Source: Candidatus Parcubacteria bacterium
Lineage (GTDB): Bacteria > Patescibacteriota > Patescibacteriia > Patescibacteriales > UBA12075
Assembly: GCA_023139655.1 (NCBI GenBank)
Contig: JAGLNE010000003.1
Coordinates: forward strand, 1 to 12,738
Reading direction: 5' to 3'
Length of the DNA stretch: 12,738 nt
Shown: positions 276-12,738 of the stretch, piece after piece
How positions within the stretch are numbered: the first letter of the stretch is position 1
Layout: every line of letters begins with the position of its first letter
The notes under the pieces: model-generated
Databases searched by the model: none
What the model was told of the DNA's origin: nothing
What the model saw: the letters and a program-made list of their open reading frames with translations, nothing else
Program-made: the position numbers and the translations under genes

Positions 276-305
276 AAGATATTAATAAAATTTATTAACT
301 ATATC

Positions 306-334: not shown

Positions 335-349
335 ATATTAGAAGAGTTC

Positions 350-378: not shown

Positions 379-398
379 TTAGATATAATTATATTACT

Positions 399-875: not shown

Positions 876-885
876 TTTTCACATA

Positions 886-917
886 AAAAACTACCTCAAT
901 TAACCAAGGTAGTTTTT
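886..917. terminator. Bidirectional hairpin terminator between convergent genes
   Basis: Perfect 11-bp stem AAAAACTACCT (886-896) / AGGTAGTTTTT (907-917) with a 10-base loop. The A-tract and T-tract at the two feet make it work as a rho-independent terminator on both strands. It lies just after the VIT1/CCC1-type stop (875) and just past the stop of the convergent giant gene (939). Confidence 0.85.
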
Positions 918-938
918 ATTATCTTAAATATATCTAAT

Positions 939-3900
939 TTATTCACTTAAACTACTAAAATCCTTATTAGAAATTCCTAGGCCTAAATTCCGCATCACTG
1001 CGAAAGCATCGGCTGGCCGGCCCAGAAAATAACGCTTAGAGTCTGCCGGATTTATGTACCAGGCTTCGCCATTCTGCTCAACCTGCAAAAATATTTTACC
1101 TAGCTGAAGACTGGTAAACCATTTACTAAAACCGAGGTTAACGTTTGGAAGCAGTGGATTAAAACCGCCTTCCATTTCCGATTTATCACTATGCCCGTCA
1201 TTATCTGTGTCGACTAAATTTGAGTTCGTCCCCAGAGCATCTTCCAGCATGTCAGAGAGCCCATCGCCGTCCGTATCAAGGCCGGTCGCAGAGCCAAAGC
1301 CAACCGGTATTTTCATTAGATTAGCATTTGTAATACCCACGCCTTGTTCGCGCATGACCGCAAAAGCATCTCCGGGTCGACCGAGAAAATAAATAGTTTC
1401 ATTGTCCGGATGGACATAATAAGCTTCGCCATTCTGCTCAACCGTAAGCATAATTCTACCTTGCAAATTCTGATACATTTTCTTATTTTTAACCGTGAGC
1501 CTAACTCTCTCCTGGCTTAAGCTAATATCGATCAACGCGGTTGTAGGCGCTTGTACAGGCGCGACTATGCCATTGCTGTAAAAACGATCAGTCATTTCTG
1601 ACAAACCTTCCAAATTATTTCCCCGATTAACAACACTCAAGCTCTTGTTCGCCACATTAGCGCTCAAACTGGTAAATAAACCGCCGGAGTAATTAATTAC
1701 TAATGACATTACGCCGGTCGTATCTTGGCCAAAAGTATTTTTGGCTGACACTATCGCTCTCTCTGGCGTTAAAGTGATCAGCCCGTAGCCGGAACCGTCT
1801 GCTACTATGCCGTGCGACCAATTACCGCAATCACTTTCCCGGCCCGGGTTATGCAGGCGACAAGCCACTTCCGCGCCGCCTAGATTTAGATCCGGCACGC
1901 TCATTTCCGGATAGCCGGAATAAGTACCGTCATCAATTGCCCCGCCGGTATGCAAATCAGCTGACACAAATATAACCCCGGATATTCCCCGCGACTTTAA
2001 ATAAGCCATTAGCTCCAAACGCTCGGCCCGAAAATCCCACCAGGCGTCATCCTTTTCGGTCGTTGGATTCCAGGTTACCGGGGTAACAATTATCTTCCAC
2101 CTGGCATTTGAATACCAAAGCGCGTCCTTAAGCCACTCCTTTTGCCCGGTTGGCAACCCGCCTGGACACAGGTTGCCGTCCAGCATAGAACGACAAGTAT
2201 TAAAACGCAAGGTGTCGCGGTTGGATCTGGCCTCAGTATCCGGAATAAAGGCAGGATCTTTATATGTATCTGCGTCGCGCTGACTGCGGACATCAAGCAC
2301 AAACACCTCGGCTAAATTACCATATTTAAAATTCTGCCAAATTCCTTCTTCTTCCCTAGCCAAATCATAGCTTGGCCAATACTCTTTGTATGCCCTTAAA
2401 GCATCTTTTTTGCTCTTAGTATTCTTGTCTCCCTGGTTCTCACCGTAATCATGGTCATCCCAAACATACGCGACAGGAGTATTATACAAAAGATAATCTT
2501 TAAGCACCGCGCCCACTTGTTTTTCGTTGCTGCGATTAGCCTTATGCATGGCCCGGTATTCACCCAAACTCGCCGGGTTACCATGGTCCATATCGCCGAT
2601 CATTAAAAGAATGTCGGGATTCTCACGCGAAAGAGAAATAACCGCCGGCGCCGACACATTAGGGTCAGCCGCCGCGTCCGCGATTATTCCCAGGGTTAGT
2701 TCCTCACCATAACGGGGAAAGGTTCTAAATTTTAATTCATTTGTATTTTTATATTCTTCCCCGTTAATAAATATCCGGTAATAATACTCTGTATCCGATT
2801 CTAAACCATTTAGTGAAATAATGCCGGCATAATCCTTTTCCGCTCCGGTAGTTATTGCACCAGACCATTGCCAGCCACTATCCAACTCGGGATCAGCCGT
2901 GTATTGAATTTGCGCGCTGGCACCCGGCTCTATCCGCAGCCAAATACGAACGCTGCTTTCGGTCACCGCGCCTATCATTGGCCCATGGGTCAGACTGGAG
3001 CCAACACTATCCCCGCTGGCCAGAATATACTCGCGAATATGGGTTTGCGGCCAGCCGCTGTGAGCGGCTATTTTGGCACTCCCGGCTTTTATAGAAATAT
3101 TTTGCCTTAAATCGGTTGTCACTTGACCCGAAATAACGCCGTTGTCAGCGTCTAGATTAAAACCCGGAGGAATAGACCCTTCATAAAGATAATAAGCAAA
3201 TGGCGGCGTACCCCAGATAGAAAAATCAGCGCTGTACATTGTCCCCGGCGCCGCCAAAGGAATACTTGAATTAGTAATAAAAGTTCCCTTCTCCGGCTCT
3301 AAAGAAACCTGGAGTAAGCTGATGATCTCGTCATATTCAGCACTGCCGGCAATATTTGATTTTGCCAAAGGGTCAACAGTATAATCGTAGTATTCATTTT
3401 CGCCGCTAATATATTCTATGTAGGCATAATTTTTTGACTTAAAGCCGGCAAAACCATGCTCCGGGTGAAAAGACTCAATAAATATTTGCTCACGCCAATC
3501 ATCTCTTTGGCCATTTAAATAAGTAAGTAAATTCCGGCCATCGGTTTCCTTGCCAATTCCGGCTGCCCCCAGGATGGTCGCGCCTACATCCAGATTAGCC
3601 GCGACCAGCTCATCCACTTGCCCGGGAACAATGCCCGGATGGACCAATACCAGAGGAACATGTAGGGCTTCATCATAAGGCGCGTTCTTGCCCCAGAGCT
3701 TATGCTCGCCCCAAAGATAACCGTTAGTTGAGGTAAATATAAATACGGTATTTTCCAGTTGGCCCTGATCGGCAACTTTATCTATTATATCCCCGATTGC
3801 CTGGTCCACGCTGTTTAAAGAACGCAGTTGATTCAAATGAAAATCATCGCGCGAATCTTTAAGAGTGGAAAAACGCTTGTTGGCCTGATCCTCAGCCCAA

Positions 3901-4718
3901 GCCGGCTTGTCGGCCACGTTATTTTCAGCGTAGCTTCGTTCGCGATATAGATAGCCATCATAAAGACTTTCATCACCCAAGGCCGGGGTGGCCGGATAAC
4001 GCGGAGTATCCGTACTAAACAACAGTAAATATGGCTCACCATTGGCCTTATCAATAAAATCAAGCGCCAGCTCAGCTTTTCTATTAATAACATAATTACT
4101 CTCTTGAGTGGCCTGACCTTTTGTGGCCTCGCTCCCGCTAGAGCCATACACCAATGAATAATTATTCCAATTACTTACTTCTTTGACGGCGTAAAAACTG
4201 GACCAGCCTGGTGGGATATAATTATCTTTGTCCGCGTATTCACTTAAATACGCTCCAACAAAACCAGTCTTATAACCAGCGTTTTGCAAGCTGGTCGAGA
4301 TAGTATCTTTATCGCGAAAGCGATTTACACCTCCGTTAGGAGATTCATTGGTAAGTACACCGGTATTCTGCGCCAAATAACCGCCGGAGAGAATACTGGC
4401 CCGCACCGGGCTGGCCAGCGGCGTAGTAACATAGGCCTCGCTAAATATTACTCCTTGGTCAATCAGCTTACTCTGTACGTTTGGCATCACATTTCGTCCG
4501 AACTGGGCATTTATATCCACATTCACCTGATTATTTCCAATGCTATCCCAACGCTGGTCAGTAGTCATAAAAACAACAATATTCATGGCTTGCGGCTCCA
4601 AAGCTACTTCCTCGGATACTTCTTCTTCGGAAGATAAAACTTCTGGCGTAAATAAAAGAAAAAACGCCGGAACCGAAACTAATATAAGCGTAAGTAATAG
4701 AATAAAAAAAATTCTCAT
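939..4718 (-). CDS. Exported sulfatase-fold / PhoD-type phosphatase fusion with calcium and C-terminal CPR repeats
   Basis: A very large surface or secreted protein. Numbering from a possible GTG at 4745 (1268 aa): signal peptide or anchor 10-33; sulfatase fold about 53-480; Ig-like (He_PIG type, IPPGFNLDADNGVISG) about 497-552; PhoD N-terminal Ig-like domain about 574-676; PhoD metallophosphatase about 683-1000 with GDMDH (717-721), VWDDHDYG (761-768), VLDVRSQR (816-823) and SADLHTGG (928-935); TSP3 calcium loops 1155-1197 (DTDGDGLSD, DTDNDGHSD); and two similar terminal repeats. The PhoD part keeps its metal-binding motifs and probably acts as a phosphodiesterase or phosphatase outside the membrane. 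The sulfatase part seems catalytically dead: Ala111 stands at the formylglycine Cys/Ser (ASPVR for CxPSR), and Thr62 and Thr340 replace metal Asp residues of TDDQ and TSDNG. I prefer the ATG at 4716-4718 because it starts a canonical signal peptide (MRIFFILLL) and the promoter at 4752-4781 would put the transcript start at about the GTG. The gene is more GC-rich than its neighbours. Confidence 0.85.
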   Translation of the reverse strand: MRIFFILLLTLILVSVPAFFLLFTPEVLSSEEEVSEEVALEPQAMNIVVFMTTDQRWDSIGNNQVNVDINAQFGRNVMPNVQSKLIDQGVIFSEAYVTTPLASPVRASILSGGYLAQNTGVLTNESPNGGVNRFRDKDTISTSLQNAGYKTGFVGAYLSEYADKDNYIPPGWSSFYAVKEVSNWNNYSLVYGSSGSEATKGQATQESNYVINRKAELALDFIDKANGEPYLLLFSTDTPRYPATPALGDESLYDGYLYRERSYAENNVADKPAWAEDQANKRFSTLKDSRDDFHLNQLRSLNSVDQAIGDIIDKVADQGQLENTVFIFTSTNGYLWGEHKLWGKNAPYDEALHVPLVLVHPGIVPGQVDELVAANLDVGATILGAAGIGKETDGRNLLTYLNGQRDDWREQIFIESFHPEHGFAGFKSKNYAYIEYISGENEYYDYTVDPLAKSNIAGSAEYDEIISLLQVSLEPEKGTFITNSSIPLAAPGTMYSADFSIWGTPPFAYYLYEGSIPPGFNLDADNGVISGQVTTDLRQNISIKAGSAKIAAHSGWPQTHIREYILASGDSVGSSLTHGPMIGAVTESSVRIWLRIEPGASAQIQYTADPELDSGWQWSGAITTGAEKDYAGIISLNGLESDTEYYYRIFINGEEYKNTNELKFRTFPRYGEELTLGIIADAAADPNVSAPAVISLSRENPDILLMIGDMDHGNPASLGEYRAMHKANRSNEKQVGAVLKDYLLYNTPVAYVWDDHDYGENQGDKNTKSKKDALRAYKEYWPSYDLAREEEGIWQNFKYGNLAEVFVLDVRSQRDADTYKDPAFIPDTEARSNRDTLRFNTCRSMLDGNLCPGGLPTGQKEWLKDALWYSNARWKIIVTPVTWNPTTEKDDAWWDFRAERLELMAYLKSRGISGVIFVSADLHTGGAIDDGTYSGYPEMSVPDLNLGGAEVACRLHNPGRESDCGNWSHGIVADGSGYGLITLTPERAIVSAKNTFGQDTTGVMSLVINYSGGLFTSLSANVANKSLSVVNRGNNLEGLSEMTDRFYSNGIVAPVQAPTTALIDISLSQERVRLTVKNKKMYQNLQGRIMLTVEQNGEAYYVHPDNETIYFLGRPGDAFAVMREQGVGITNANLMKIPVGFGSATGLDTDGDGLSDMLEDALGTNSNLVDTDNDGHSDKSEMEGGFNPLLPNVNLGFSKWFTSLQLGKIFLQVEQNGEAWYINPADSKRYFLGRPADAFAVMRNLGLGISNKDFSSLSE
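960..1457 (-). repeat. Duplicated C-terminal module flanking the TSP3 calcium loops
   Basis: Residues 1097-1143 (bases 1317-1457) and 1217-1263 (about 957-1097) are two copies of one 47-residue module; by hand, 28 of 47 positions are identical, including VEQNGEA, YFLGRP and DAFAVMR. The TSP3-type loops (1155-1283) sit between them. Modules of this kind end many CPR surface proteins. Their function is unknown to me; cell-surface attachment or sorting is a guess. Confidence 0.8.
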
Positions 4719-4751
4719 ACAACTCTTAAAATTTATTATTAACACATCTAA

Positions 4752-4781
4752 ATTTTACCACATTTAGCTACCTAAAAGCAA
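4752..4781 (-). promoter_or_regulatory. Probable promoter of the sulfatase/PhoD gene
   Basis: On the minus strand TTGCTT (4776-4781), 18-base spacer, TAAAAT (4752-4757). Start near 4745, so a transcript would begin at the possible GTG start and have about 27 bases ahead of the ATG at 4718. The -35 box matches the consensus weakly. Confidence 0.4.
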
Positions 4782-4806
4782 AAAGAACGGCCTTAACCGT
4801 TCTTTT
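4781..4806. terminator. Hairpin terminator upstream of the sulfatase/PhoD gene
   Basis: Perfect 10-bp stem AAAAGAACGG (4781-4790) / CCGTTCTTTT (4797-4806), 6-base loop, with A- and T-tracts on both sides. It stops minus-strand transcription from the gene-poor region on its right before it reaches the giant gene. Confidence 0.75.
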
Positions 4807-5234
4807 TATTAATTATAAGAATGAAGTCGTAAAAAATCTCCTTTCTTTTTTTATTTTATTAATAAACTCTATAATTTTTTAACCTGGCGGACCTCGGAAA
4901 GACAGGGGCACTTCTTGTTTATTAACTAAATTAATACAGGCCAATTCTCTTATCAAAATATCATTATTGATCTCTAGCTTAAATGATACGCCTAAGCCAG
5001 CGTTTAAAACTGGCCGCAGGCAAGTTGAAACATGGGCCTGTGTGTACATAATTTTTTGTTTATTTAATTTTTTAAACTGCAACAAAAAATAACTGTCGCA
5101 AAAAGCTAAACAGTTATATCTATAGAGGAAAAATAAATTGTAATTCTATTTTTCACTTTATTTTTTTATTTTTTTCTATATTGAGACTATATTATAAATA
5201 TAGCATAAATACGCATTTTAGTGAAGTGGATAAG
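4807..5234. other. Gene-poor AT-rich interval
   Basis: No convincing gene. A minus-strand reading frame runs from a TTG at 5085 (or ATG at 5047-5049, 56 codons) to 4879 and ends SFRGPPG. It has no ribosome binding site and no family I recognise, although its codons (GCC, CTG, GGC next to AT-rich flanks) look less random than the surroundings, so a small hypothetical gene is possible. Its 3' end lies in a short GC-rich repeat (GGCGGACCTCGGAA, 4886-4899) seen again at 10261. A weak stem TAACTGT (5090-5096) / ACAGTTA (5110-5116) and an all-AT hairpin near 5186-5202 lie beyond the end of the MinD operon; neither is a strong terminator. Confidence 0.5.
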
Positions 5235-6122
5235 TTAAATTCTGCTTAAAATTTTATATAATTTTTCAGCAATATTACTAAATAATTTTTCTAAATTTTT
5301 ATTTATCAAAACCACTGGCACCATATTTACCAAAGCTTTAACGAAATCTTTATCATAAGGCAATTCGCCGATTATTTTTATTTTATTTTTCTTAGCAAAG
5401 CCCTTAATTTTCTCACAACCTTCCTGGTTAATATCAAACTTATTAATTATGATCCCGCTATTAATATTAAAATGCTTAATAACATTATAAGCTCTTTCCA
5501 TATCGAACAGCCCGGCTGGAGTCGGTTCAGCCACTAAAATACAATAATCACTACCAGTAACCGAGGCAATAACCGGACAGCCAATACCGGCAGCTGAATC
5601 AATTAATGTTATCTCCTCGTCCTTGGCGATTTCCTTGGCTTTTTCTTTTACCGCAGCCACCACTTTGCCCGAACCGGACTCGCCCATCTTTAGTTGAGCG
5701 GATACAAGCTTTATGCCATATTTCGTTTCTGCGTAGCCAATTTTCGCATTAACAACATCAAGCAATTTAATTGCTTTACTCGAACAAACCAACTCGCAAA
5801 CACCGCAGCCTTCACAGCTAAATTCTTTTAACCGCGGTTTATTATCAATCCAGTCAATAGCGTTAAAATAACATTCTTTGTAACATTTTTTACAACTATT
5901 ACACAAATTATAATCAAACTCAGCCTTCTCGGCCGCATTTAGACTAACCCATTCTTTAAAATCACTTTCCTTAACACCAAAAACCAAAGCTAAATTAGCC
6001 GCGTCAACATCGCAATCAGCGCATATTATTTTTTTCTTCCTGGCTATCATGAGCGCCAAAGATGCGGTAATACTGCTTTTGCCAGTACCGCCCTTGCCGC
6101 TTAAAATGGTAATAATCTTCAT
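5235..6122 (-). CDS. MinD/Mrp-type ATPase with inserted ferredoxin domain (downstream paralogue)
   Basis: A 295-residue cytosolic P-loop ATPase of the MinD superfamily with two [4Fe-4S] motifs. Visible: deviant Walker A GKGGTGKSS (9-17) with signature Lys10; switch segment ADCDVDAANL (35-44); CNSCKKCYKEC (Cys74, 77, 80, 84); CEGCGVCELVC (Cys103, 106, 109, 113); and IDSAAG (174-179). Proteins of this layout sit beside NifX/orange-protein genes and are thought to couple ATP hydrolysis to metal-cluster handling, by analogy with Mrp/NBP35 Fe-S carriers. The last gene of the operon, it starts 3 bases after the stop of its paralogue, so the two are almost certainly co-translated and may form a heterodimer. 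Compared with that paralogue it has SAQLKMGESGSG where the partner has SGELKVNEP, and a different Fe-S spacer. The ATG at 6120-6122 begins directly with the P-loop strand. The exact substrate is unknown. Confidence 0.88.
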   Translation of the reverse strand: MKIITILSGKGGTGKSSITASLALMIARKKKIICADCDVDAANLALVFGVKESDFKEWVSLNAAEKAEFDYNLCNSCKKCYKECYFNAIDWIDNKPRLKEFSCEGCGVCELVCSSKAIKLLDVVNAKIGYAETKYGIKLVSAQLKMGESGSGKVVAAVKEKAKEIAKDEEITLIDSAAGIGCPVIASVTGSDYCILVAEPTPAGLFDMERAYNVIKHFNINSGIIINKFDINQEGCEKIKGFAKKNKIKIIGELPYDKDFVKALVNMVPVVLINKNLEKLFSNIAEKLYKILSRI

Positions 6123-6125
6123 AAA

Positions 6126-6956
6126 TTAAATTTTTTCTATTATCTTATCAATAATCTCATTTTCAATCGGCTCTCCTTGCGCGTGTCGTTTAACCATCTC
6201 TTTTGAATAAGGGATCTTTGCAATTATCTTTGTATTGTATTTATGAACTAGTTTTTCAATTAGCTTTTCATCGCCAATGTCTGAACGGTTCAATACAATA
6301 TTAGCCTTAAGAGATATTTTTTTAAGAAGCTGTAGGATCAACCCCAGGTCATGAGCCCCCAAAGGTGTTGGCTCGGTAACCGCCAAAACCATGTCGCAAA
6401 TTTGGAGTGCCGCGATTACCGGACAATGGGTTCCGGCAGCCGTATCAATAATAACATAATCATATTCAGTTTTTTTCTTATCAATTATTTTATTTAACGC
6501 GTTAACGATGAATTCAGAAATTGGCTCATTAACTTTCAGCTCTCCGGACAAAAAATCAATATCGTATTTTGAACCAGTATATATTTTCCCGATCTCCTTT
6601 TTGTCCCAACTAATCGCCTTTTCCGGACAAACTAGCGCGCAGGCACCGCAGCCGTTGCACTGAGCAGGCATAAAAAATGGATTCTGGCCCTTAACTGAAA
6701 CAATAGCATTTGTTTTGCAAACCGCTGAACATAAACCACATTTTTTACATTTTGAATAATCCCATTTGGGAATTCTTTGCTCTACTTTTTTTCTTAATTT
6801 CCTTTTAATCCCCAGAAATAAATGATCATTAGGGCAATCAACGTCAGCATCAACTAAAAAAACTCTATTGTTTTGAGCCAATTTATAGGCTAAAGCAGTG
6901 GCCACGGTTGATTTGCCCGTACCGCCCTTGCCGCCGCTTACGCCAATTATTTTCAT
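6126..6956 (-). CDS. MinD/Mrp-type ATPase with inserted ferredoxin domain (upstream paralogue)
   Basis: A 276-residue paralogue of the next gene. Walker A GKGGTGKST (9-17) with Lys10; DADVDCPNDH (36-45); [4Fe-4S] motifs CKKCGLCSAVC (Cys70, 73, 76, 80) and CNGCGACALVC (Cys100, 103, 106, 110), the latter followed by PEKAI as in bacterial ferredoxins; Walker B-like VIIDTAAGTHCPV (168-180); and VTEPTPLGAHD (194-204), the conserved nucleotide-proximal loop of this family. All eight cluster cysteines are present. It starts 31 bases after the tandem NifX-domain gene and ends 3 bases before its paralogue, so it belongs to the same operon. ATP-dependent assembly, transfer or sensing of a metal-sulfur cluster carried by the NifX-like partner is an inference from gene context in other bacteria. 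The ATG at 6954-6956 opens directly into the P-loop. Confidence 0.88.
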   Translation of the reverse strand: MKIIGVSGGKGGTGKSTVATALAYKLAQNNRVFLVDADVDCPNDHLFLGIKRKLRKKVEQRIPKWDYSKCKKCGLCSAVCKTNAIVSVKGQNPFFMPAQCNGCGACALVCPEKAISWDKKEIGKIYTGSKYDIDFLSGELKVNEPISEFIVNALNKIIDKKKTEYDYVIIDTAAGTHCPVIAALQICDMVLAVTEPTPLGAHDLGLILQLLKKISLKANIVLNRSDIGDEKLIEKLVHKYNTKIIAKIPYSKEMVKRHAQGEPIENEIIDKIIEKI

Positions 6957-6987
6957 ATTTTGTTTTTCAATTATTTTTCTTAAAAAA

Positions 6988-7755
6988 TCAATGCCCGCAA
7001 TTTTTCGTTAGATCCTCAAGTTTATCAACATTATTTATCATTTCTCCCACGGTTTTATAAGGGCCGGTTTTTAATAAAATATTCCTAGCCGTAAATAAAT
7101 CAACCGCCCGCCTACCCATGTCTTGAACAAAAATAATAGTCGGATCAACCGCCTCTATCACCTGGTCGACCGGAGATTTACTTAGATCACTATGATCCAA
7201 TTTATTTTCTTTTATTGTCAATTTATTCGCGCTTGCGTCATACAAGCCAAAAAACGGGGCATGCCCAAAATGCAGTGATATTTTCGAATCCTCTCCATTG
7301 TCGTCCATTAAAGGAATAAATATTCTTGGCCGATCAACGCTAATATTATTATTATTTTTAGTGCCGGAAGAAGGAGCGTTTTCTTTATTTTCAGCTAAAT
7401 TATTATTAATATATTCGTTAATTGCCTCTTTAATTATTCCGGATTTTTTATACACCTCTATGCCTAATTGACTTAATACTTCCCCTGCCTTAGGTCCGAT
7501 ATCGCCGGTAATCAATGCCTTAACTTTCAAATTGCCAATCTGCTCAGCAGCGCTTAAGCCGGCCCCGCTGCCCTGAGATGCTCCAACATTCTCAATTATC
7601 TGACTGTTTAATATTTCCCCATTATTAATTTCTACTACAGCAAAATACTTACATCTTCCAAAACGAAGATCAATTTCTGAGTCAAGAGAATCCTTGGCTG
7701 AAGAAACGCAAATTTTGAATATTTTATTGTCGTTTGAATTCATAATTTTATCCAT
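6988..7755 (-). CDS. Tandem NifX/orange-protein-like (dinitrogenase Fe-Mo cofactor family) protein
   Basis: A 255-residue protein with two copies of the dinitrogenase iron-molybdenum cofactor (NifX/NafY/NifB C-terminal) fold joined by a Ser/Asn-rich linker (about 119-141). Copy 1 (about 13-118): KICVSS, DLRFGRCKYFAVVE (29-42), ALITGDIGPKA (80-90), VYKKSG. Copy 2 (about 143-245): PRIFIPL, ISLHFGHAPFFGLYD (159-173), IIFVQDMGRRA (207-217), LKTGPYKTVGEMI. It ends KNCGH, a Cys/His tail of the sort that could bind metal. Family members hold Fe-Mo or Mo-Cu sulfide clusters; most are single-domain, so the tandem arrangement is notable. Which metal is bound cannot be read from sequence. Start ATG 7753-7755, only 2 bases past the regulator's stop; a second ATG at 7741-7743 is possible. 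No nitrogenase genes are near, so FeMo-cofactor work is unlikely. Confidence 0.85.
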   Translation of the reverse strand: MDKIMNSNDNKIFKICVSSAKDSLDSEIDLRFGRCKYFAVVEINNGEILNSQIIENVGASQGSGAGLSAAEQIGNLKVKALITGDIGPKAGEVLSQLGIEVYKKSGIIKEAINEYINNNLAENKENAPSSGTKNNNNISVDRPRIFIPLMDDNGEDSKISLHFGHAPFFGLYDASANKLTIKENKLDHSDLSKSPVDQVIEAVDPTIIFVQDMGRRAVDLFTARNILLKTGPYKTVGEMINNVDKLEDLTKNCGH

Positions 7756-7757
7756 TA

Positions 7758-8057
7758 TTATTTAATAATCTTTATTGCTTTACCGTTTATCAAAGCTTCG
7801 GTAACTTTTGTACGCGCCGATAACAAAATTCTCTGCAAAGTACTCTGCGAAGTTTTCATTCTTTCGGCGCATTCATTTTGGTCCAAACCGACAATATTTT
7901 TTAAACGCAGGGCCTCAATTTCTTCGCACGTTAATTCCACTACTTCCAACTCGCACATCGGTACACCGCGCGGCTTAAAATAATTTACCCGCGGATTAAA
8001 ACAAATGTGCCGCTTAAGACGCGGCCGGCCTGATTGTCGCCTATATCTATTATTCAT
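7758..8057 (-). CDS. DUF134 family predicted DNA-binding regulator
   Basis: A 99-residue protein of the DUF134 family. From the ATG at 8055-8057 it has a basic N-terminus (GRPRLKRHICFNP), then FKPRGVPMCELEVVELTCEE, EIEALRLKNIVGLDQNECAE and RMKTSQSTLQRILLSARTKV, the sigma70 region-4-like helix-turn-helix of the family, ending ALINGKAIKI. This family commonly lies next to NifX-domain and MinD-ferredoxin genes and is thought to regulate them. The frame stays open to an ATG at 8111, but those extra 18 codons run through a repeat hairpin (8077-8103) and resemble nothing in the family, so the shorter start is preferred; no Shine-Dalgarno supports either. Its stop is 2 bases ahead of the NifX-domain ATG. 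It is the best candidate to bind the palindromes at 8489-8534; that link is inferred. Confidence 0.85.
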   Translation of the reverse strand: MNNRYRRQSGRPRLKRHICFNPRVNYFKPRGVPMCELEVVELTCEEIEALRLKNIVGLDQNECAERMKTSQSTLQRILLSARTKVTEALINGKAIKIIK

Positions 8058-8076
8058 ATTTTGATTCGTATGCTTG

Positions 8077-8138
8077 CCCTTCCGTAGCTTTAGCGTAGGA
8101 GGGTGCCCCATTCGCCTGTCCTGAGCGGAGTCGAAGGG
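8077..8138. repeat. Composite intergenic hairpin repeat
   Basis: Two GC-rich hairpin-prone units between the DUF5320 and DUF134 genes, in otherwise AT-rich DNA. Unit 1 (8077-8103) holds CCGTAGCTTTAGCGTAGG, with near-complementary CCCTTCC and GGAGGG ends. Unit 2 (8114-8138) holds CCTGTCCTGAGCGGAGTCG (CGACTCCGCTCAGGACAGG on the other strand), a sequence I have met as a dispersed repeat in many environmental bacterial genomes. Probably REP- or MITE-like; no transposase is here. Confidence 0.55.
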
Positions 8139-8166
8139 TAGTGGGGGCTTGCCAAAGGCAATAACA

Positions 8167-8212
8167 CTAAAATTAGCCTCGCTTCAAAACAAGGAAGTGA
8201 GGCTAATTTTAG
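8167..8212 (-). terminator. Long hairpin after the DUF5320 gene (terminator or attenuator)
   Basis: A 19-bp stem, CTAAAATTAGCCTCGCTTC (8167-8185) with 8194-8212, one wobble mismatch and an 8-base loop; the DUF5320 stop codon lies inside its right arm. There is no long T-tract outside the stem and I see no clear promoter between it and the DUF134 gene, so partial termination that tunes the rest of the operon is plausible. Confidence 0.6.
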
Positions 8213-8454
8213 CTCTTTAAAGCTTCTTTTTCTTTTCTTACTTGTTCTAATTCTTCTTTAAGAATTTTTTCTTCCTGGTCTAAATCCGTTTTTTGGTCGG
8301 TTTCGGTTAATGATTGTCTAAACAATCCTCGTCCGCGGCCAAATCCACGGCCAATGCAATCCCAGCCTCGCCTTATACCCCGTCCGCATGCTCCAAATCC
8401 TCTACCGGTCATTGGTCCTGCGCCTTGAGGGCCTGTTTTGTCATATCCTGGCAT
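8209..8454 (-). CDS. DUF5320 family small Gly/Arg-rich protein
   Basis: An 81-residue protein that opens MPGYDKTGPQGAGPMTGRGF, the DUF5320 hallmark, continues with a Gly/Arg/Cys stretch (GACGRGIRRGWDCIGRGFGRGRG) and ends in a charged coiled-coil-like helix (about residues 54-81, EEKILKEELEQVRKEKEAL). Its biochemical role is unknown; in other bacteria such genes accompany NifX-domain, DUF134 and MinD-ferredoxin genes, which fits this operon. The start is decided by the sequence: GGAGGT at 8462-8467 lies 7 bases ahead of the ATG at 8452-8454, whereas the in-frame ATG at 8467-8469 overlaps that ribosome binding site and adds only MEVVN. This is the one strong Shine-Dalgarno I found in the window, suggesting high expression. 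The promoter is at 8519-8547. Confidence 0.82.
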   Translation of the reverse strand: MPGYDKTGPQGAGPMTGRGFGACGRGIRRGWDCIGRGFGRGRGLFRQSLTETDQKTDLDQEEKILKEELEQVRKEKEALKS

Positions 8455-8461
8455 ATTTACC

Positions 8462-8467
8462 ACCTCC
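8462..8467 (-). promoter_or_regulatory. Strong ribosome binding site of the DUF5320 gene
   Basis: GGAGGT on the minus strand, 7 bases from the ATG at 8454. It decides the start against the upstream ATG that overlaps it. Confidence 0.85.
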
Positions 8468-8488
8468 ATTCTAGTTTATATTTATAAC

Positions 8489-8512
8489 ATAACATACTTA
8501 AATCTATGTTAT
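8489..8512. promoter_or_regulatory. Inverted-repeat operator candidate at +1 to +24
   Basis: ATAACATA (8489-8496) and TATGTTAT (8505-8512), a perfect 8-bp inverted repeat with an 8-base spacer, directly downstream of the predicted transcription start. All AT-rich, so a protein-binding site is more likely than an RNA hairpin. Confidence 0.5.
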
Positions 8513-8534
8513 ATTATGAGTATATACCCATAAT
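8513..8534. promoter_or_regulatory. 22-bp palindromic operator candidate over the -10 box
   Basis: Half-sites ATTATGAGTAT (8513-8523) and ATACCCATAAT (8524-8534) are reverse complements except for one base pair. The palindrome covers the -10 hexamer (8519-8524), a classic position for repression, and directly abuts the inverted repeat at 8489-8512. Confidence 0.6.
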
Positions 8535-8547
8535 GATATTTTGTCAA
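8519..8547 (-). promoter_or_regulatory. Consensus sigma70 promoter of the DUF5320-DUF134-NifX-MinD operon
   Basis: TTGACA (8542-8547), 17-base spacer, TATACT (8519-8524) on the minus strand; start near 8512. The -35 box overlaps the TGA stop of the upstream YibE/F gene, so read-through from that gene is also possible. Confidence 0.75.
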
Positions 8548-9617
8548 GTCCTACGGCTATACCACCAAGAAGCAATGAAAGTTGCGATCGGGACCGCGAG
8601 AATCAAACCGATTGAACCGGTCAAAGTGCGGACAATTTCCGTGGCAATCAGCTCGGTATTAATGGCTTGTTGCCAACTGGCAAAAGCGCTTGTACCAGAA
8701 CCAAATAAAATAAGTAAAGGTAGGGAGGCGCCAGCATAAGCCAGAAACAAAGTATTGGTCATAGAAGCAATGTGCGATATTCCCACTTGATATGCTTTTT
8801 TAAAAAGCTCTTTTTGGCTTAAATGCTTATTGGCCAGTTTCAACTGCTCAACCGTTGAAACTTGCGAGATCACCACATCGTCCAATACGCCCAGAACGCC
8901 GATTATTATCCCGGCCAAAAGCAAGCCGGTTAAGTCTATGCTAGCGCCCTGAATATTAAATAAAAATAAAGTTTCTTCACTGGCCGCTCCGGTCAAGCGG
9001 GCCAGAGAAACAAACAATTCCGAGAGTGTGATGGTTATGACCAGACTTAAAAATATACTAAGGGCAGAGAGATGGGCGCGCGCCTTAATCCCTTCGGTAA
9101 TATATATTATGGCTGCTAAAATAACCAAAGCGCTTACAAAAGTAACCATTATCGGATTCGCGCCAGAGAGAATCTGGGGAATTAGATATTTGATAATTAT
9201 AAAAAAAGTAATTGCCAAGGCGATAAGCGAACGCAAACCTTTTAATCGGCCAACAATTATAAGCGTTAGGAAAAAAGCCAGCCCTAAAAATAGCAAACTT
9301 TTACTGCGCACATAATCAATTACATAAAAATTTACTTCTCCACTTGCGTCGTAGCTGGCCGCCATCATTACTTTGTCACCCTTTTTGTATTTCTGAGAAT
9401 TTATTACATCCAGGTCACTAATACCATTAAACTCTATTTCTTTATTATCAAACTCCCCTTCCAGGCCGCGCAACTTTAAATATTGCTGATTCATCTCTTC
9501 CGCCAATATTTCAATTACCTCAGCCTTAAAAATAACATCCTCATTAATGTCAGCTTGCGCCAAAGCAAAATTCGGAATGAATAATAGTAGTAATAATAAA
9601 AATATAATTTTTTTCAT
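8544..9617 (-). CDS. YibE/F family multipass membrane protein
   Basis: A 357-residue protein with a signal peptide (1-20, cleavage likely after NFALA), an extracytoplasmic N-terminal domain of about 80 residues (21-104, with a KKGDKVMM turn) and about seven membrane helices (roughly 106-122, 128-147, 154-172, 183-207, 230-250, 283-306, 335-352). GIIIGVLGVLDDVVISQVST (236-255) and SMTNTLFLAYAGASLPLL (285-302) are typical YibE/F segments. The family's function is unsettled; transport has been suggested. It starts 8 bases after the YafQ-type toxin stop, so it is probably on the toxin-antitoxin transcript, and its TGA overlaps the -35 box of the next operon with no terminator between. No Shine-Dalgarno; the ATG at 9615-9617 fits the signal peptide (MKKIIFLLLLL). 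Confidence 0.85.
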   Translation of the reverse strand: MKKIIFLLLLLLFIPNFALAQADINEDVIFKAEVIEILAEEMNQQYLKLRGLEGEFDNKEIEFNGISDLDVINSQKYKKGDKVMMAASYDASGEVNFYVIDYVRSKSLLFLGLAFFLTLIIVGRLKGLRSLIALAITFFIIIKYLIPQILSGANPIMVTFVSALVILAAIIYITEGIKARAHLSALSIFLSLVITITLSELFVSLARLTGAASEETLFLFNIQGASIDLTGLLLAGIIIGVLGVLDDVVISQVSTVEQLKLANKHLSQKELFKKAYQVGISHIASMTNTLFLAYAGASLPLLILFGSGTSAFASWQQAINTELIATEIVRTLTGSIGLILAVPIATFIASWWYSRRT

Positions 9618-9625
9618 ACAATAAT

Positions 9626-9895
9626 CTATTTAAATAATTTAGAATGACTACCGGTTCTTTCAAAAATTATATTATTGCCGTCTTTTTGAAATATTAAAAG
9701 CCAATCAGGCTGAATATGGCATTCAAACCGATTTTTGTAAATTCCTGACAATTTATGTAGTCTGTATTTTGTTTCAATGTTTGTACCTTTAAGTAATTTA
9801 CGTATTACAACCTTTATTTTTTTCATTTCCTTGCCTTCTTTTTTACAGCTTTTAATGTCTTTTTTAAATTGTTTATTAAAATAAGGAGTAAACAC
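9626..9895 (-). CDS. yafQ: YafQ-type (RelE superfamily) mRNA-interferase toxin
   Basis: An 89-residue toxin of a type II system; YafQ cuts mRNA on the ribosome. The residues that matter in E. coli YafQ have counterparts: His47 (RLHKLSG), His60, Asp64 and Trp65 (ECHIQPDWLLIF), His84 and Phe88 (RTGSHSKLF). Length is normal and the frame is intact, so it is probably active. It uses a GTG start (9893-9895) whose G overlaps the last base of the antitoxin's TAG (TAGTG), so translation is coupled and the toxin is made after the antitoxin. A YibE/F gene follows 8 bases later. Confidence 0.9.
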   Translation of the reverse strand: MFTPYFNKQFKKDIKSCKKEGKEMKKIKVVIRKLLKGTNIETKYRLHKLSGIYKNRFECHIQPDWLLIFQKDGNNIIFERTGSHSKLFK

Positions 9896-10155
9896 TATAT
9901 TTCAAGCTTATCAAATAAACTCTTCGCATCCTTGGTTTTAACTAAATTTTTCTTTTTATCGGTTTCCTCAAACGTTTGTTTGGTTGTTTTATTTGGAATT
10001 TTCACGCTAAAAGGCAAGCCATCATGGAGCTTGATTTGTTTATAAAAAAGAGTGATAGCTTCAGTTGTTGAGAGCCCAAGCTTCTCAAAAACCTTTCCTA
10101 CGTCAACTTTTAGCTTTTCTTCAATTCGCGCCCTTATCATGGCTGATTTATTCAT
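9895..10155 (-). CDS. dinJ: RelB/DinJ-type antitoxin
   Basis: An 86-residue antitoxin. The N-terminus MNKSAMIRARIEEKLKVDVG gives the beta strand and first helix of a ribbon-helix-helix DNA-binding domain, and LGLSTTEAITLFYKQI (27-42) the second helix, followed by DGLPFSVKIPN, characteristic of DinJ. The Lys-rich C-terminal part (56-86, ending AKSLFDKLEI) should wrap the toxin. It is first in the operon, with a strong promoter at 10186-10214 and no Shine-Dalgarno. With YafQ it is expected to repress its own promoter; a TGTAT/ATACA inverted repeat within the promoter spacer is a candidate site. Confidence 0.9.
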   Translation of the reverse strand: MNKSAMIRARIEEKLKVDVGKVFEKLGLSTTEAITLFYKQIKLHDGLPFSVKIPNKTTKQTFEETDKKKNLVKTKDAKSLFDKLEI

Positions 10156-10185
10156 ATATTTGTTAGTTTAATTTATTATACCCAT

Positions 10186-10214
10186 ATTGTATCTCATTTG
10201 GAATACAGTGTCAA
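10186..10214 (-). promoter_or_regulatory. Sigma70 promoter of the toxin-antitoxin operon
   Basis: TTGACA (10209-10214), 17-base spacer, TACAAT (10186-10191). Inside the spacer, TGTAT (10188-10192) and ATACA (10203-10207) form an inverted repeat that may be the antitoxin operator. A second possible -10, TATAAT, lies just downstream near 10174-10179. Confidence 0.7.
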
Positions 10215-10218
10215 GTCT

Positions 10219-10256
10219 AAAATAAGACTACAGAGTTAACTCTGTAGTCTTATTTT
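10219..10256. terminator. Perfect 19-bp palindromic terminator
   Basis: AAAATAAGACTACAGAGTT (10219-10237) with its exact reverse complement (10238-10256): a 38-base perfect palindrome with A and T ends, folding with a short loop (TTAA). It terminates the dehydrogenase-like gene, which ends at 10314, and protects the toxin-antitoxin promoter from read-through. Confidence 0.85.
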
Positions 10257-10260
10257 TGTG

Positions 10261-10277
10261 GGCGGAAACCTCGGAAG
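10261..10277. repeat. Short GC-rich repeat, second copy of 4886-4899
   Basis: GGCGGAAACCTCGGAAG here and GGCGGACCTCGGAA at 4886-4899 match except for two extra A's. Both stand in AT-rich DNA near gene 3' ends, in the same orientation. It looks like half of a palindromic dispersed repeat. Confidence 0.35.
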
Positions 10278-10313
10278 TTCAAACGGTCTATTTGGAGAAA
10301 TTTGTTGAGGCGG

Positions 10314-11225
10314 TTAAAAAATCAAGTTTATAGGATTACCATTAATCCAAGCTTCAATATTATCAATCATCATTTTACTAGCAACCCTATCAGTAACATC
10401 TGTATTATAAGAAATATGCGGAGTGGCGAGCACTTTTGGATGTTCTACCAATCTTTTAAAGAATGGGTCAGAGGTATCTCCAACTTGGATACCTCCAGAA
10501 TCGTTAGCAACACCAGCTAAAATCCCTTGGTCTAATGCTTCAAACATTCCCTCAATATCATATATTTTAGTACCAGTTACAGTTATAAAAAATGATCCTT
10601 TTTTCAAAGATATAAAAAAGCTCTTATTAAGAAAGCCAAGGGTGCTAGGGTTTGTGCTTATAGTATTAATAACCAAATCAGCTTCCTTGACGCTCTCAAT
10701 TAAGTCGTCCCCTCTTTTGAAATAACTAACATCCATTTTTAATGAAGACAGAATATCGCCAACGGTTGAACCAATGTTTCCCTTTCCTAAAATTGTAACT
10801 TTTTTTGACATTAGACCTAAAGTTTCTTTTGGGATTCTATCCGATGACATTCCCAGATTATTAATTAATCTAGGAAATTCTCTAAACAAATTTAAAGTCA
10901 TTGCTACTATCCACTCTGATACGGCTTCTTTGTTGCAACCAGGACAATAAGAAACAGTAATGTTTCTTTCTTTGATTTTATCACGGTCAATAAAACTGAC
11001 TCCCACAAAAGGCAATGAAAAAAATACATCTTTTAGCTCATACAATTTTTCTGTTTTTAATCCAAATTTACCTGAACAAACAATATCGGCTCCCTGGCAT
11101 CTGCTCAACCATTCATCTGGGGTTTTTGGTAAATCATCGTACATTTTTAACTCTCCCAATTTTTCTAATCGGATAATTTCTTCTTTATTTAATCCCAAGT
11201 CTTGGGTAATTACTATTTTTGACAT
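10314..11225 (-). CDS. D-isomer-specific 2-hydroxyacid dehydrogenase-like protein
   Basis: A 303-residue protein with the two-part fold of NAD-dependent D-2-hydroxyacid dehydrogenases: substrate-domain pieces about 1-100 and 278-303, and a Rossmann domain about 101-277. Seen: VSEWIVAMTLNLFREF (102-117), dinucleotide loop GKGNIG (147-152), DLVINTIS (183-190) and TPHISYNT (268-275) with the catalytic His270. The other two catalytic positions look changed: the usual NxARG segment reads ITVTGTK (214-220), with Thr where Arg is expected, and the DVFEEEP region reads NDSGGIQV (241-248), without the Glu. It may have an unusual substrate, or bind NAD without normal dehydrogenase activity. No ACT domain, so not a full-length PGDH. 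Monocistronic, between terminators at 11260-11285 and 10219-10256. ATG 11223-11225, no Shine-Dalgarno. Confidence 0.82.
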   Translation of the reverse strand: MSKIVITQDLGLNKEEIIRLEKLGELKMYDDLPKTPDEWLSRCQGADIVCSGKFGLKTEKLYELKDVFFSLPFVGVSFIDRDKIKERNITVSYCPGCNKEAVSEWIVAMTLNLFREFPRLINNLGMSSDRIPKETLGLMSKKVTILGKGNIGSTVGDILSSLKMDVSYFKRGDDLIESVKEADLVINTISTNPSTLGFLNKSFFISLKKGSFFITVTGTKIYDIEGMFEALDQGILAGVANDSGGIQVGDTSDPFFKRLVEHPKVLATPHISYNTDVTDRVASKMMIDNIEAWINGNPINLIF

Positions 11226-11251
11226 ATTATTATTTAATTATTATTTATATT

Positions 11252-11280
11252 AGTATAACAAAAATCGCCAATTATGGCGA
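11252..11280 (-). promoter_or_regulatory. Possible promoter of the dehydrogenase-like gene
   Basis: TCGCCA (11275-11280), 17-base spacer, TATACT (11252-11257) on the minus strand. The -35 box would lie inside the terminator stem of the upstream gene. The -10 box is convincing, the -35 less so. Confidence 0.4.
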
Positions 11281-11285
11281 TTTTT
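11260..11285. terminator. Hairpin terminator after the lipoprotein gene
   Basis: Perfect 11-bp stem AAAAATCGCCA (11260-11270) / TGGCGATTTTT (11275-11285) with a 4-base loop, 80 bases past the lipoprotein stop at 11366. Confidence 0.85.
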
Positions 11286-11365
11286 ATTTGTGAACCTTTT
11301 TTACGAAATCAGGCTTCTGACAGTAGGGTCATATTGACATCAATAAAATAATTCCATCAATTAAT

Positions 11366-12481
11366 TTATGGCAGTAAATTGATCGCTTGATCCGCTGCAT
11401 TGGCATTATCCAGGGCCTGGCGCAAATCCACATCACTCTCGGCCTGCACTCCTTTGAAATAATCATACAAATCACAATTCAACTTAATATATTCGTGCGG
11501 TTTTAATTTTTGTTCCTCTAGGGCCGGCTCGCCAGATTGATAATTATAAAGCCGGTTTAAGCCTTCGCCGGCGTAATCAACCGCAGCGCCGGCTAAATTC
11601 TTAACATGTTCTCCAATTAATCCACTGGCTGTTTCCGCGGCCGAAGCAGTCATAGCCGCCACATCCGGGATACCGCCGGCAAGGACAGAGGCGATCCGAG
11701 TAGAAAATTCCATAATTGCCACGTTGGTCATATCGGCAATACCGTTAATGCAATTCTTATTTGCATCCAGCATAGCATCCCTGATGCCGTCCCGAACCGC
11801 GTTTATTTCTTTAACCGTATCGGACCAAAGTTTCTTTTCCGCGATTAATTTATCCCTAGCTACCTTAATACTGTTTTCATCGCGAATACATGCTCCTGCC
11901 TGGCAAATTTTCGGAAAACTTAGCTCGCCAAAATTTTCCGTGTCTGCATTGCAGTCATTGTCAAAAGTCTTCTCACAAGTATCGGTGCGTGCGTTACAGC
12001 CCATTTTCCACATTACACTCTCCTCGCAAATCGGGTCACAATCACTATCATATTTACATTCACCTTCATCATTATCATCATTATCATCAGCATCTTCATC
12101 CTCAGTTGAATCAACATCATCTCTTTTAACGCATTTATCATTACGGGAAACTTCATCCAAATCACATTGAATGCAGCTTTTTCCCTTGATTATACCATTA
12201 CCGGCTCGACAATTATCCTTATAACTATCAAACCTATCTTCCACCCAATTGTCATATTGTTCATTAACATATTTTTTAGCCTCTCTTTTGCTCATATTAA
12301 TACTATCGCAATACTTATTATGAAAAGCGCATTTGCAGTAAGACGCGTTAATACCCACTCCGCAAAAACTATCCTTTATATCCCCCTTCTTAAAACTGGT
12401 CTTTTCGCTACAAGCACTTAAAATAAACACGGCCGCAAACAGGGCTAATACTAACTTAAAATAATGCTTTTCTTTTGTCAT
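11366..12481 (-). CDS. Cys-rich lipoprotein of unknown function
   Basis: A 371-residue exported lipoprotein: positively charged start (MTKEKHYFK), hydrophobic helix and lipobox LSAC with lipidated Cys24. The mature N-terminal half (about 25-200) has 16 of the protein's 18 further cysteines (40, 49, 51, 58, 91, 103, 106, 117, 142, 148, 152, 162, 169, 177, 193, 198), an even number that suggests disulfide-linked small modules, some of the kind CKYDSDCDPIC and CNARTDTCEKTFDNDC. Between modules lies an acidic low-complexity tract (120-141), possibly calcium-binding. The C-terminal half (about 205-371) is mainly helical, with an Ala/Gly-rich segment (about 262-305). I do not recognise a named family; a surface structural or binding role is only a guess. 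The disulfides imply an oxidising compartment outside the membrane. Monocistronic, with a promoter at 12514-12542 and a terminator at 11260-11285. Confidence 0.75.
   Translation of the reverse strand: MTKEKHYFKLVLALFAAVFILSACSEKTSFKKGDIKDSFCGVGINASYCKCAFHNKYCDSINMSKREAKKYVNEQYDNWVEDRFDSYKDNCRAGNGIIKGKSCIQCDLDEVSRNDKCVKRDDVDSTEDEDADDNDDNDEGECKYDSDCDPICEESVMWKMGCNARTDTCEKTFDNDCNADTENFGELSFPKICQAGACIRDENSIKVARDKLIAEKKLWSDTVKEINAVRDGIRDAMLDANKNCINGIADMTNVAIMEFSTRIASVLAGGIPDVAAMTASAAETASGLIGEHVKNLAGAAVDYAGEGLNRLYNYQSGEPALEEQKLKPHEYIKLNCDLYDYFKGVQAESDVDLRQALDNANAADQAINLLP
12059..12124. repeat. Triplet-rich low-complexity tract encoding the acidic linker
   Basis: Repeated CAT/TCA-type triplets (for example ATCATCATTATCATCAT-like runs) encode the Asp/Glu/Asn tract of the lipoprotein. 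Gain or loss of whole triplets would change linker length without a frameshift. Confidence 0.6.
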
Positions 12482-12513
12482 ATTCTTTTTTTAATATTTA
12501 TATTTCTAAACTT

Positions 12514-12542
12514 AATGTATCATTTTTTGTCTAGAATTTCAA
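12514..12542 (-). promoter_or_regulatory. Probable promoter of the lipoprotein gene
   Basis: TTGAAA (12537-12542), 17-base spacer, TACATT (12514-12519) on the minus strand, giving a leader of about 25 bases to the ATG at 12481. An A-rich AAAAAAAGAAT precedes the ATG in place of a clear Shine-Dalgarno. Confidence 0.5.
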
Positions 12543-12544
12543 AT

Positions 12545-12574
12545 AAAATAATCCTGTAAAAACAGGATTATTTT
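12545..12574. terminator. Hairpin terminator beside the right-end element
   Basis: Perfect 12-bp stem AAAATAATCCTG (12545-12556) / CAGGATTATTTT (12563-12574) with a 6-base loop. On the minus strand it immediately follows the inverted-repeat element at 12578-12727, as expected if that element is transcribed. Confidence 0.8.
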
Positions 12575-12577
12575 TAT

Positions 12578-12727
12578 TTTGTGGGCCGGGTAGGACTCGA
12601 AGGGGCGGAAGCCCCACGCCATCATTGGATACGAAGGGTGTAGAATATATTTTAATACTATGTAACAATACTAATATCTTATAAAACATATAATCATAGT
12701 AGATTCTCGACACACCCGGCCCACAAA
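12578..12727 (-). other. 150-base element closed by a perfect 14-bp inverted repeat, tRNA-like 3' end
   Basis: Ends TTTGTGGGCCGGGT (12578-12591) and ACCCGGCCCACAAA (12714-12727) pair perfectly. Read on the minus strand, the 3' end TTCGAGTCCTACCCGGCCCA looks like a tRNA T-loop (TTCGAGT), 3' T-stem (CCTAC), acceptor strand (CCGGCCC) and discriminator A, and the 5' end GGGCCGG is the matching acceptor strand. But the 5' T-stem (GTAGG expected) is interrupted: CCTTCGTA is followed by about 28 extra bases with a GGGGC/GCCCC hairpin, and the middle is AT-rich with no clear D-arm or anticodon arm. It may be a decayed or invaded tRNA gene, a structured small RNA, or a MITE-like element. No convincing protein: a 60-codon minus-strand frame here starts within the element and has no ribosome binding site. 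Confidence 0.5.
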
Positions 12728-12738
12728 TAAAATACAGC

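Follow-up and report, generated by a model that had tools for sequence, protein, structure and literature searches.

A fused NifX-fold protein, two ferredoxin-containing ATPases and a proposed DUF134 operator in a Falkowbacteria-like genome

Organization of the locus

We analysed 12,738 nucleotides of a Candidatus Parcubacteria genome (GenBank assembly GCA_023139655.1, contig JAGLNE010000003.1, positions 1 to 12,738; hereafter the window), in which five genes on the minus strand encode a DUF5320 protein, a DUF134 helix-turn-helix protein, a tandem NifX-fold protein (X1-X2) and two MinD-type ATPases (A and B). The window is contig C72 of a 1,194,981-base genome in 148 contigs (completeness 89.65), and its source is a Falkowbacteria-like Patescibacterium and thus a member of the candidate phyla radiation (CPR), the phylum Falkowbacteria being placed within the Patescibacteria group. 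The nearest named relative, a Candidatus Falkowbacteria contig (L003), has the identical order YibE/F, DUF5320, DUF134, X, A, and its NifX protein is 96% identical to that of the window, in agreement with a preliminary description of this DNA that had suspected a CPR genome.

Profile searches located all five families where that description had placed them. The DUF5320 protein (8209..8469, minus strand; 86 amino acids (aa)) matches PF17253 (1.1e-14, 55.8 bits) and the DUF134 (UPF0251) protein (7758..8111, minus strand; 117 aa) matches PF02001 (1.6e-20, 73.9 bits), both passing the gathering score of 27; the X1-X2 protein (6988..7755, minus strand; 255 aa) matches PF02579 (2e-33, 115 bits), and ATPases A (6126..6956, minus strand; 276 aa) and B (5235..6122, minus strand; 295 aa) both combine CbiA/ParA with Fer4 matches, a two-cluster ferredoxin being inserted into each MinD-type protein. 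For DUF134 the L003 homologue favours a start at 8057 (99 aa), which is probably the true one. The gaps among the last four genes are 2, 31 and 3 bases, as previously given. The order and strand of the five-gene row likewise held, whereas DUF5320 proved to be set apart by 97 bases; because this gap holds a terminator-like 12-bp inverted repeat (8169..8210, minus strand, including a 7-pair stem at 8194-8177), DUF5320 may form its own transcript ahead of a four-gene unit. The gap also contains a repeat, CTTCGACTCCGCTCAGGACAG (8116-8136), with three copies genome-wide at two or fewer mismatches. No known RNA element was found in the window at gathering score.

The promoter of DUF5320 consists of a TTGACA -35 box (8542..8547, minus strand), which shares bases with the stop codon of YibE/F, the next gene upstream, and a TATACT -10 box (8519..8524, minus strand) at a spacer of 17. 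A 16-bp palindrome, ATGGGTATATACTCAT (8516..8531), covers the -10 box and is proposed here as the DUF134 operator.

Two NifX lineages in one chain

The window protein contains two copies of PF02579 (domain scores of 72 and 47 bits; gathering score passed), and no further PF02579 match was found elsewhere in the window's genome. The X1 domain (7408..7683, minus strand) bears an RFGR signature and continues into an Asn-rich linker and then X2 (6988..7290, minus strand), which bears an HFGH signature and a C-terminal Cys253-x-His255 motif; C253 is invariant and H255 nearly invariant across 32 aligned relatives. A search returned 137 relatives of X1-X2, and because the best 120 all share a length of 237-277 aa and at least 95% query cover, the tandem form is a family of its own. 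The 15 organism-named rows among these best 120 of 137 are labelled Woesearchaeota, Aenigmarchaeota, Diapherotrites, Nanoarchaeota or simply 'archaeon'.

Public genomes were scanned with two peptide patterns, of which xHFGHAP was one; 80 of 90 loci were retained, and these loci were used to build hidden Markov models (HMMs) for A, B, X1, X2, DUF134 and DUF5320. Thirty-six loci (L003-L038) hold the X1/X2 pair or part of it, fused in 29; in L033 and L034 the two are separate adjacent genes, an unfused counterpart. In a tree of 165 rows, the tandem N-terminal halves (31/31) fell on one side together with the orange protein (ORP) and MTH1175, and the tandem C-terminal halves (30/31) on the other with a Thermotoga protein, the fork having a support of only 81/85 in a tree built from 116 columns. 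Of 33 single NifX genes that precede A, 28 are X1 and five are X2; of 24 that follow B, 21 are X2 and three are X1. The order is swapped in L036, L048 and L059. Because the tree split matches the position of the single genes around A and B, X1 and X2 are distinct paralogous partners older than the fusion, and the window protein is their fused form. Among X1 rows, RFGR is present in 30 of the 31 tandem and 29 of the 42 single ones; among X2 rows, HFGH is present in 28 of the 30 tandem and 51 of the 52 single ones. The latter frequency was selected for by the scan pattern and the former was not.

The best solved relative of X1 is MTH1175 (8e-21), and the ORP structure PDB 2wfb is matched at 1.2e-8. 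The tandem protein remains well below the cut-offs of the NifX equivalog TIGR02663 (23 bits versus 112) and of MrpORP (NF041136, 365 positions; 62.7 bits versus 450). Gly-rich cationic tails resembling that of IssA, which the window's X1 does not have, were observed on single-domain X1 proteins of L083, L086, L087 and L102 (CPR) and L061 (Anaerolineae), that is, on 5 of 42 X1-side single genes and on none of the X2 side.

A pair of ferredoxin-containing ATPases

Each ATPase carries two C-x2-C-x2-C-x3-C sets, giving the eight cluster cysteines already counted in the preliminary description. All eight are invariant among 29 aligned A sequences, and seven of the eight among 28 aligned B sequences, the remaining C109 being conserved in at least 90%. 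An extra invariant cysteine follows the switch-II motif (C178 in A, C182 in B), at what would be a +7 spacing from the switch-II Asp, recalling Cys132 of NifH. The MinD profiles TIGR01968 and TIGR01969 were not reached by either protein, for which the best score was 75.9 bits; ATPase B scored 75.9 bits against the cut-off of 201.75 (TIGR01969) and 66 bits against that of 212.9 (TIGR01968).

Fusions in relatives extend the picture. The ATPase A of L036 begins with an IscU-like NifU_N domain (PF01592, 9.8e-24), and such A-IscU fusions occur among the best 120 rows in at least six protein clusters (P0121-P0126, with identities down to 56%), one of which is that of the query itself. In L004, L010, L032 and L034 a fusion of a cation-diffusion-facilitator (CDF) exporter with NifX sits between A and B, and the six CDF-linked NifX domains form one clade (support 100/99). 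In the ATPase A tree, sequences from CPR and DPANN archaea were jointly split from those of other bacteria at 100/100, their inner order not being resolved.

Recurrence of the operon

Among the 36 NifX-pair loci, A was found in 31, B in 30 and DUF134 in 31; all three were present in 25, and the genes lay on a single strand in 36 of 36, with flanks taken up to 8 kb. Several of the missing genes are contig ends, but L035 and L037 are without ATPases, and the NifX-to-A distance ranges from overlap to 5.3 kb, meaning that the two are not always neighbours. These counts show that the gene order is not due to chance. Of 44 other loci (L039-L082), 20, mostly from Anaerolineae and Chromatiaceae, likewise have this ATPase pair flanked by NifX genes in the order X, A, B, X; the earlier emphasis on exactly two ATPases as a special feature therefore has to be dropped, while the paired architecture suggested with it finds a counterpart in two distinct NifX lineages that go with the two ATPases.

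PF02579 was detected in 16 of 286 CPR genomes (13 above cut-off) and in none of 21 other genomes sampled from the window's class. To this extent the operon is as unexpected in a CPR genome as had been supposed, but the fused X1-X2 operon recurs in many DPANN archaea as well as in some CPR. Genes near it in DPANN encode, among others, ZIP, SBF-CBS, thioredoxin and radical SAM proteins, together with ArsP-like and DsbD-like proteins that score below their cut-offs; in L011, L016 and L028 an SBF-family permease with CBS domains lies between the NifX gene and ATPase A. The sole non-CPR bacterial label in L003-L038 belongs to L015 (Aminicenantes), which may be a misbinned contig because its sequences cluster with those of Woese- and Nanoarchaeota in the phylogenies.

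A palindrome associated with DUF134

The preliminary description had named DUF134 as the regulator but missed its candidate DNA site. The 16-bp consensus of the palindrome is ATGRRYATATRYYCAT; GTATATAC is the form in four CPR loci, and the archaeal form was recovered by a mismatch-tolerant scan. In 988,616 bases (the window plus L003-L082), the consensus gave 13 matches at one or fewer mismatches (8 exact, 5 with one mismatch), all of which sit 20-118 bp before DUF5320, NifX or DUF134 genes and which come from CPR, DPANN, Halanaerobium and Opitutales; in archaea, too, it is found ahead of DUF5320. When these bases were shuffled twice, no exact and three one-mismatch matches resulted. Within the window's genome, 8516-8531 is the only such site among the matches listed.

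Two larger samples were then examined for the association with DUF134. Among the 30 best of 53 listed DUF134 matches (51 genomes), located by HMM, 19 have the palindrome (up to one mismatch) within 900 bp upstream, against 0.04 expected from shuffles. Where DUF5320 closely precedes DUF134, the palindrome lies 27-82 bp ahead of the DUF5320 match in 19 of 22 loci at two or fewer mismatches, as measured from the midpoint of the palindrome to where that match begins; it is missing in L175, L186 and L187, and L182 stands outside the 22, its DUF5320 match being 1.4 kb away. Furthermore, the exact consensus occurs at 21 sites in 19 of 286 CPR genomes, compared with one site for the reversed control, and 17 of these 19 genomes contain DUF134 versus 51 of 286 overall (P=2e-12). 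Fifteen of the 21 sites precede a DUF134 match by 23-501 bases (cut-off 505 bp). The palindrome thus goes with DUF134 genes.

The position of the site also recurs. A TTGACA-like -35 box at a spacer of 17 was found at 15 of 27 CPR sites, which were picked by hand at up to two mismatches (L034 was scored at a wrong site and counted as a miss), compared with 6% of 180 TATAYT hexamers at spacers 16-18. In DPANN, visual inspection showed the palindrome directly behind the end of a TATA-like box at five sites. Repression is the likely mode of control, because a palindrome over the -10 box or after a TATA-like box would block transcription.

DUF134 is a sigma-region-4-like helix-turn-helix protein with the predicted recognition helix SQSTLQR. 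The end of this helix varies with the half-site: GGG-type sites go with QR-ending helices in 13 of 13 cases, and GAAT-type sites with QR in 3 of 13 and mostly with AR, GR or HR (10 of 13), giving 13:0 versus 3:10 (Fisher test, p=1e-4) with types assigned by reading and with L003, L007, L035, L199 and three CATATG-type sites omitted. Adding those four loci gave 14:0 versus 5:11 (p=9e-5), and thinning of near-copies gave 12:0 versus 5:9 (p=7e-4). CATATG cores pair with SR helices in L178, L183, L078, L043, L049, L054, L055 and L071; this link is weaker, as L042 has an SR helix without such a site and the helix of L075 was not found. We accordingly propose DUF134 as a candidate autorepressor that would read the palindrome.

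DUF5320 as a probable companion of DUF134

The N-terminal half of the window's DUF5320 protein is rich in Gly and Arg (15 Gly, 9 Arg/Lys and 2 acidic residues of 47; pI 11.5) and contains two cysteines; the C-terminal part is acidic. DUF5320 and DUF134 are neighbours in many loci. Of 31 DUF134 proteins from NifX loci, 20 continue into a Cys ribbon and 18 have a DUF5320-like DGTGP stretch. Because DPANN archaea fuse DUF134 to a DUF5320-like stretch and a Cys ribbon, DUF5320 would be the sensory or cofactor partner of DUF134, and it is perhaps tied to it as a metal- or cluster-sensing part. The DUF134 frame of G274 is interrupted by a stop codon.

Thioredoxin- or DsbD-like proteins with GCPHC or CGHC motifs were observed beside DUF134 or the palindrome in L163, L171, L215 and L216, and perhaps belong to the palindrome regulon; in Pfam, those of L163 and L215 came near the cut-off for Glutaredoxin or DsbD_TM and that of L171 had no match.

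Several observations weigh against a simple reading in which the palindrome serves DUF134 and DUF134 serves the NifX/ATPase complex. Six of the 21 exact CPR sites are not within 505 bp upstream of DUF134: the sites of G135 and G201 lie 1.9 and 4.3 kb upstream, that of G259 lies 1.3 kb downstream and 10 bases before a DsbD/glutaredoxin-like gene, and those of G065, G192 and G127:C18 are on contigs without DUF134. The sites of G192 and G201 are at the start of ArsR-family genes (PF01022). The 12-mer GGGTATATACTC gave 21 sites versus 12 for the reversed control; the whole palindrome is needed, and the 12-mer alone is a poor predictor. The covariation of operator and helix stems partly from related sequences. 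For the HQST-type DUF134 proteins of DPANN, the filter found the palindrome in 0 of 20, with a one-mismatch site before DUF5320 in L006, and these proteins may read another site. Finally, DUF5320-DUF134 pairs occur in six CPR genomes without a PF02579 match (G012, G020, G086, G174, G176 and G196), and six genomes with the palindrome (exact or one mismatch) have DUF5320-DUF134 and no PF02579 match; the regulator is therefore not specific to the NifX/ATPase complex.

Other features of the window

Directly upstream of YibE/F lies a YafQ-type toxin/RelB-type antitoxin pair (9626-10155, minus strand; PF15738, PF04221). A 1268-aa protein (939-4745, minus strand) joins sulfatase and PhoD-like phosphatase domains with a TSP3 repeat, an unusual-looking combination, and a 158-aa protein (399-875, plus strand) partially matches the VIT family (PF01988, 3e-10). 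A defence role for the locus was considered and rejected, PADLOC matches being weak and partial.

Comparison with known systems

The closest known counterpart is the Desulfovibrio vulgaris ORP complex (Orp3, Orp4, Orp5, Orp8 and MrpORP), in which, according to excerpts of PMC6345978, a NifX-fold carrier is encoded together with two MinD-type two-cluster ATPases; Orp3 and Orp4, each with two [4Fe-4S] motifs, co-purify with Orp8, the NifX-fold protein. The ORP likeness noted at the outset therefore stands, and the complex is a variant of this kind. It differs in that the window fuses two NifX domains in one chain and has no Mrp/NBP35-NifX fusion, in that its genome gave no sign of molybdenum use in a PF00994 search, and in that one strand with a sigma-70-type promoter and a palindrome replaces two divergent operons with a sigma-54 promoter (sigma-54 boxes were not searched for in the window).

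Each half of the chain has a relative of its own. The HFGH loop and C-terminal Cys-x-His of X2 have counterparts in the Di-Nase domain of MrpORP, which is described in the same excerpts (PMC6345978) as having CXHFGHCE and CDH motifs and binding a [3Fe-4S] cluster; unlike MrpORP, X2 has no attached Mrp ATPase domain. X1 shares its fold with Pyrococcus furiosus IssA and with MTH1175, an IssA homologue that served as the template for the IssA model according to excerpts of PMC5524996; IssA has a C-terminal Gly-rich cationic tail, in contrast to the window, where a separate Gly/Arg-rich DUF5320 is encoded upstream. The PF02579 domain is common to the nitrogenase cofactor carriers NifX, NafY and NifB, from which the window's protein differs by its NifX equivalog score and by the absence of a nitrogenase match in the genome. 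For DUF134/UPF0251 and DUF5320 both family profiles are matched; the DNA site, the promoter position and the recognition code are proposed here.

In the open-licence literature we found no description of a fused X1-X2 family in CPR or DPANN, of the X1/X2 rule, of the IscU or CDF fusions, or of a DUF134 operator. Judged by titles and the beginnings of abstracts, none of the open-licence papers found to name DUF134, DUF5320 or UPF0251 is about these families, and a passage of one paper mentioning UPF0251 only lists a mutation.

Discussion

The operon, the fused X1-X2 chain, the paralogous ATPases A and B and the palindrome over the -10 box are established at the level of sequence. Our preferred interpretation, to which we give a probability of about 0.6, is a streamlined ATP-driven iron-sulfur carrier complex of the ORP type under its own repressor. 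Iron-sulfur assembly or trafficking is favoured because ATPase A is fused to an IscU-like scaffold in relatives. In the window's genome, no match was found to the nitrogenase component PF00148, as the preliminary description had anticipated, to MoCF_biosynth PF00994 (molybdate uptake genes were not searched for) or to SufBD, although about 10% of the genome is missing and these absences are not proof. One IscU-like gene adjoins an IscS-like gene (Aminotran_5, 1.3e-74) on contig C26, and it was this pair that a search for a small number of Fe-S assembly genes recovered. Iron-sulfur work is the simplest reading of this gene content, and molybdenum is without support.

A true orange protein system, in which the ATPases load a Mo-Cu or other thiomolybdate sulfide cluster, bound non-covalently in ORP, onto X1-X2, had been the background to the preliminary description. 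X1 does lie on the tree side of the PDB 2wfb ORP and matches it, and excerpts of PMC6345978 present Orp8 as homologous to Mo-Cu sulfide cluster proteins and as co-purifying with two such ATPases; the missing MoCF_biosynth and nitrogenase matches in a genome about 90% complete, the better match of X1 to the IssA homologue MTH1175 (PMC5524996, in excerpt) and the motif that X2 shares with the Fe-S-binding MrpORP domain nevertheless make this very unlikely, and Mo-Cu storage was rejected as a first choice for want of a MoCF_biosynth match. Detoxification and storage, with X1-X2 sequestering metal-sulfide or thiometallate species and the ATPases feeding an exporter, is rather unlikely. The CDF exporter fusions between A and B, the SBF-CBS and ZIP transporters and the ArsP-like permease (below cut-off) of DPANN loci all speak for it, as does the Gly/Arg-rich DUF5320, which resembles the tails seen on five of the 42 single proteins of the X1 side; such transporters beside the relatives fit efflux or storage equally well and so count against the preferred iron-sulfur interpretation. 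The window's unit, however, has no transporter, the IscU fusion of ATPase A points to assembly, and storage has no need of a four-cluster ATPase pair.

The CbiA/ParA domains could suggest MinD/ParA-like positioning of septum or chromosome, and a role of ORP in cell division has been suggested for D. vulgaris (PMC4672049, in excerpt). The inserted ferredoxin clusters, the NifX neighbours, the IscU fusions and MinD profile scores far under the cut-offs make such a role extremely unlikely, and on these scores it was rejected. Equally improbable is an archaeal origin of the contig through misbinning, as the archaeal names among the X1-X2 relatives could be taken to mean: the window has a bacterial TTGACA-17-TATACT promoter and a Fapy-DNA glycosylase gene, and the named Falkowbacteria contig shares its gene order YibE/F-DUF5320-DUF134-X-A. 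It is, finally, quite unlikely that a different regulator, for instance an ArsR/SmtB-type repressor, reads the palindrome and that DUF134 is a passenger. The two exact CPR sites at ArsR-family genes fit that idea, and TGAA-N6-TTCA is an arrangement that we take to resemble ArsR-type operators; against it stand the 15 of 21 exact sites close upstream of DUF134, the direct adjacency of the site to DUF134 where DUF5320 is missing (L176 at -22, L183 at -29) and the way the half-site type tracks the DUF134 helix (QR with GGG, SR with CATATG).

In the iron-sulfur carrier interpretation, a DUF134 dimer would bind the palindrome and repress DUF5320 and probably the operon, until a signal, probably the cluster or metal state, released it from the promoter. 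ATPases A and B would pair as a heterodimer. With its ATP cycle and its four [4Fe-4S] clusters, this dimer would reduce, assemble or transfer an iron-sulfide cluster, which would be held on X1-X2 and moved towards Fe-S proteins. An anionic cluster would be bound by the RFGR loop of X1, HFGH and the C-terminal Cys-x-His of X2 would act as its ligands, and the IscS/IscU-like pair would supply iron and sulfur.

A broader proposal, which we regard as doubtful, is that CPR and DPANN have in common an ATP-powered system which assembles and stores iron sulfide and is separate from ISC, SUF and NIF. Here X1-X2 would be the carrier and A-B the pump, DUF5320 would act in trans as the cationic scaffold that is a tail in IssA, and DUF134 would be a cluster-responsive repressor with one operator and a helix-to-half-site code, placed over the -10 box in bacteria and just after the TATA box in archaea.

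To our knowledge, iron-sulfur supply is little understood in these two great groups of tiny, mostly host-dependent microbes. The fused X1-X2 protein, the ATPase pair and the IscU fusion offer a small expressible set for the study of ORP-type function without Desulfovibrio genetics, and with the palindrome two 'domains of unknown function' become a regulator and a regulon that can be tested. The same site is used at bacterial and archaeal promoters and would thus be a DNA switch common to both domains, apparently read by DUF134, while the locus itself probably represents a compact, ATP-using gene set for iron-sulfur handling in a bacterium with a tiny genome.

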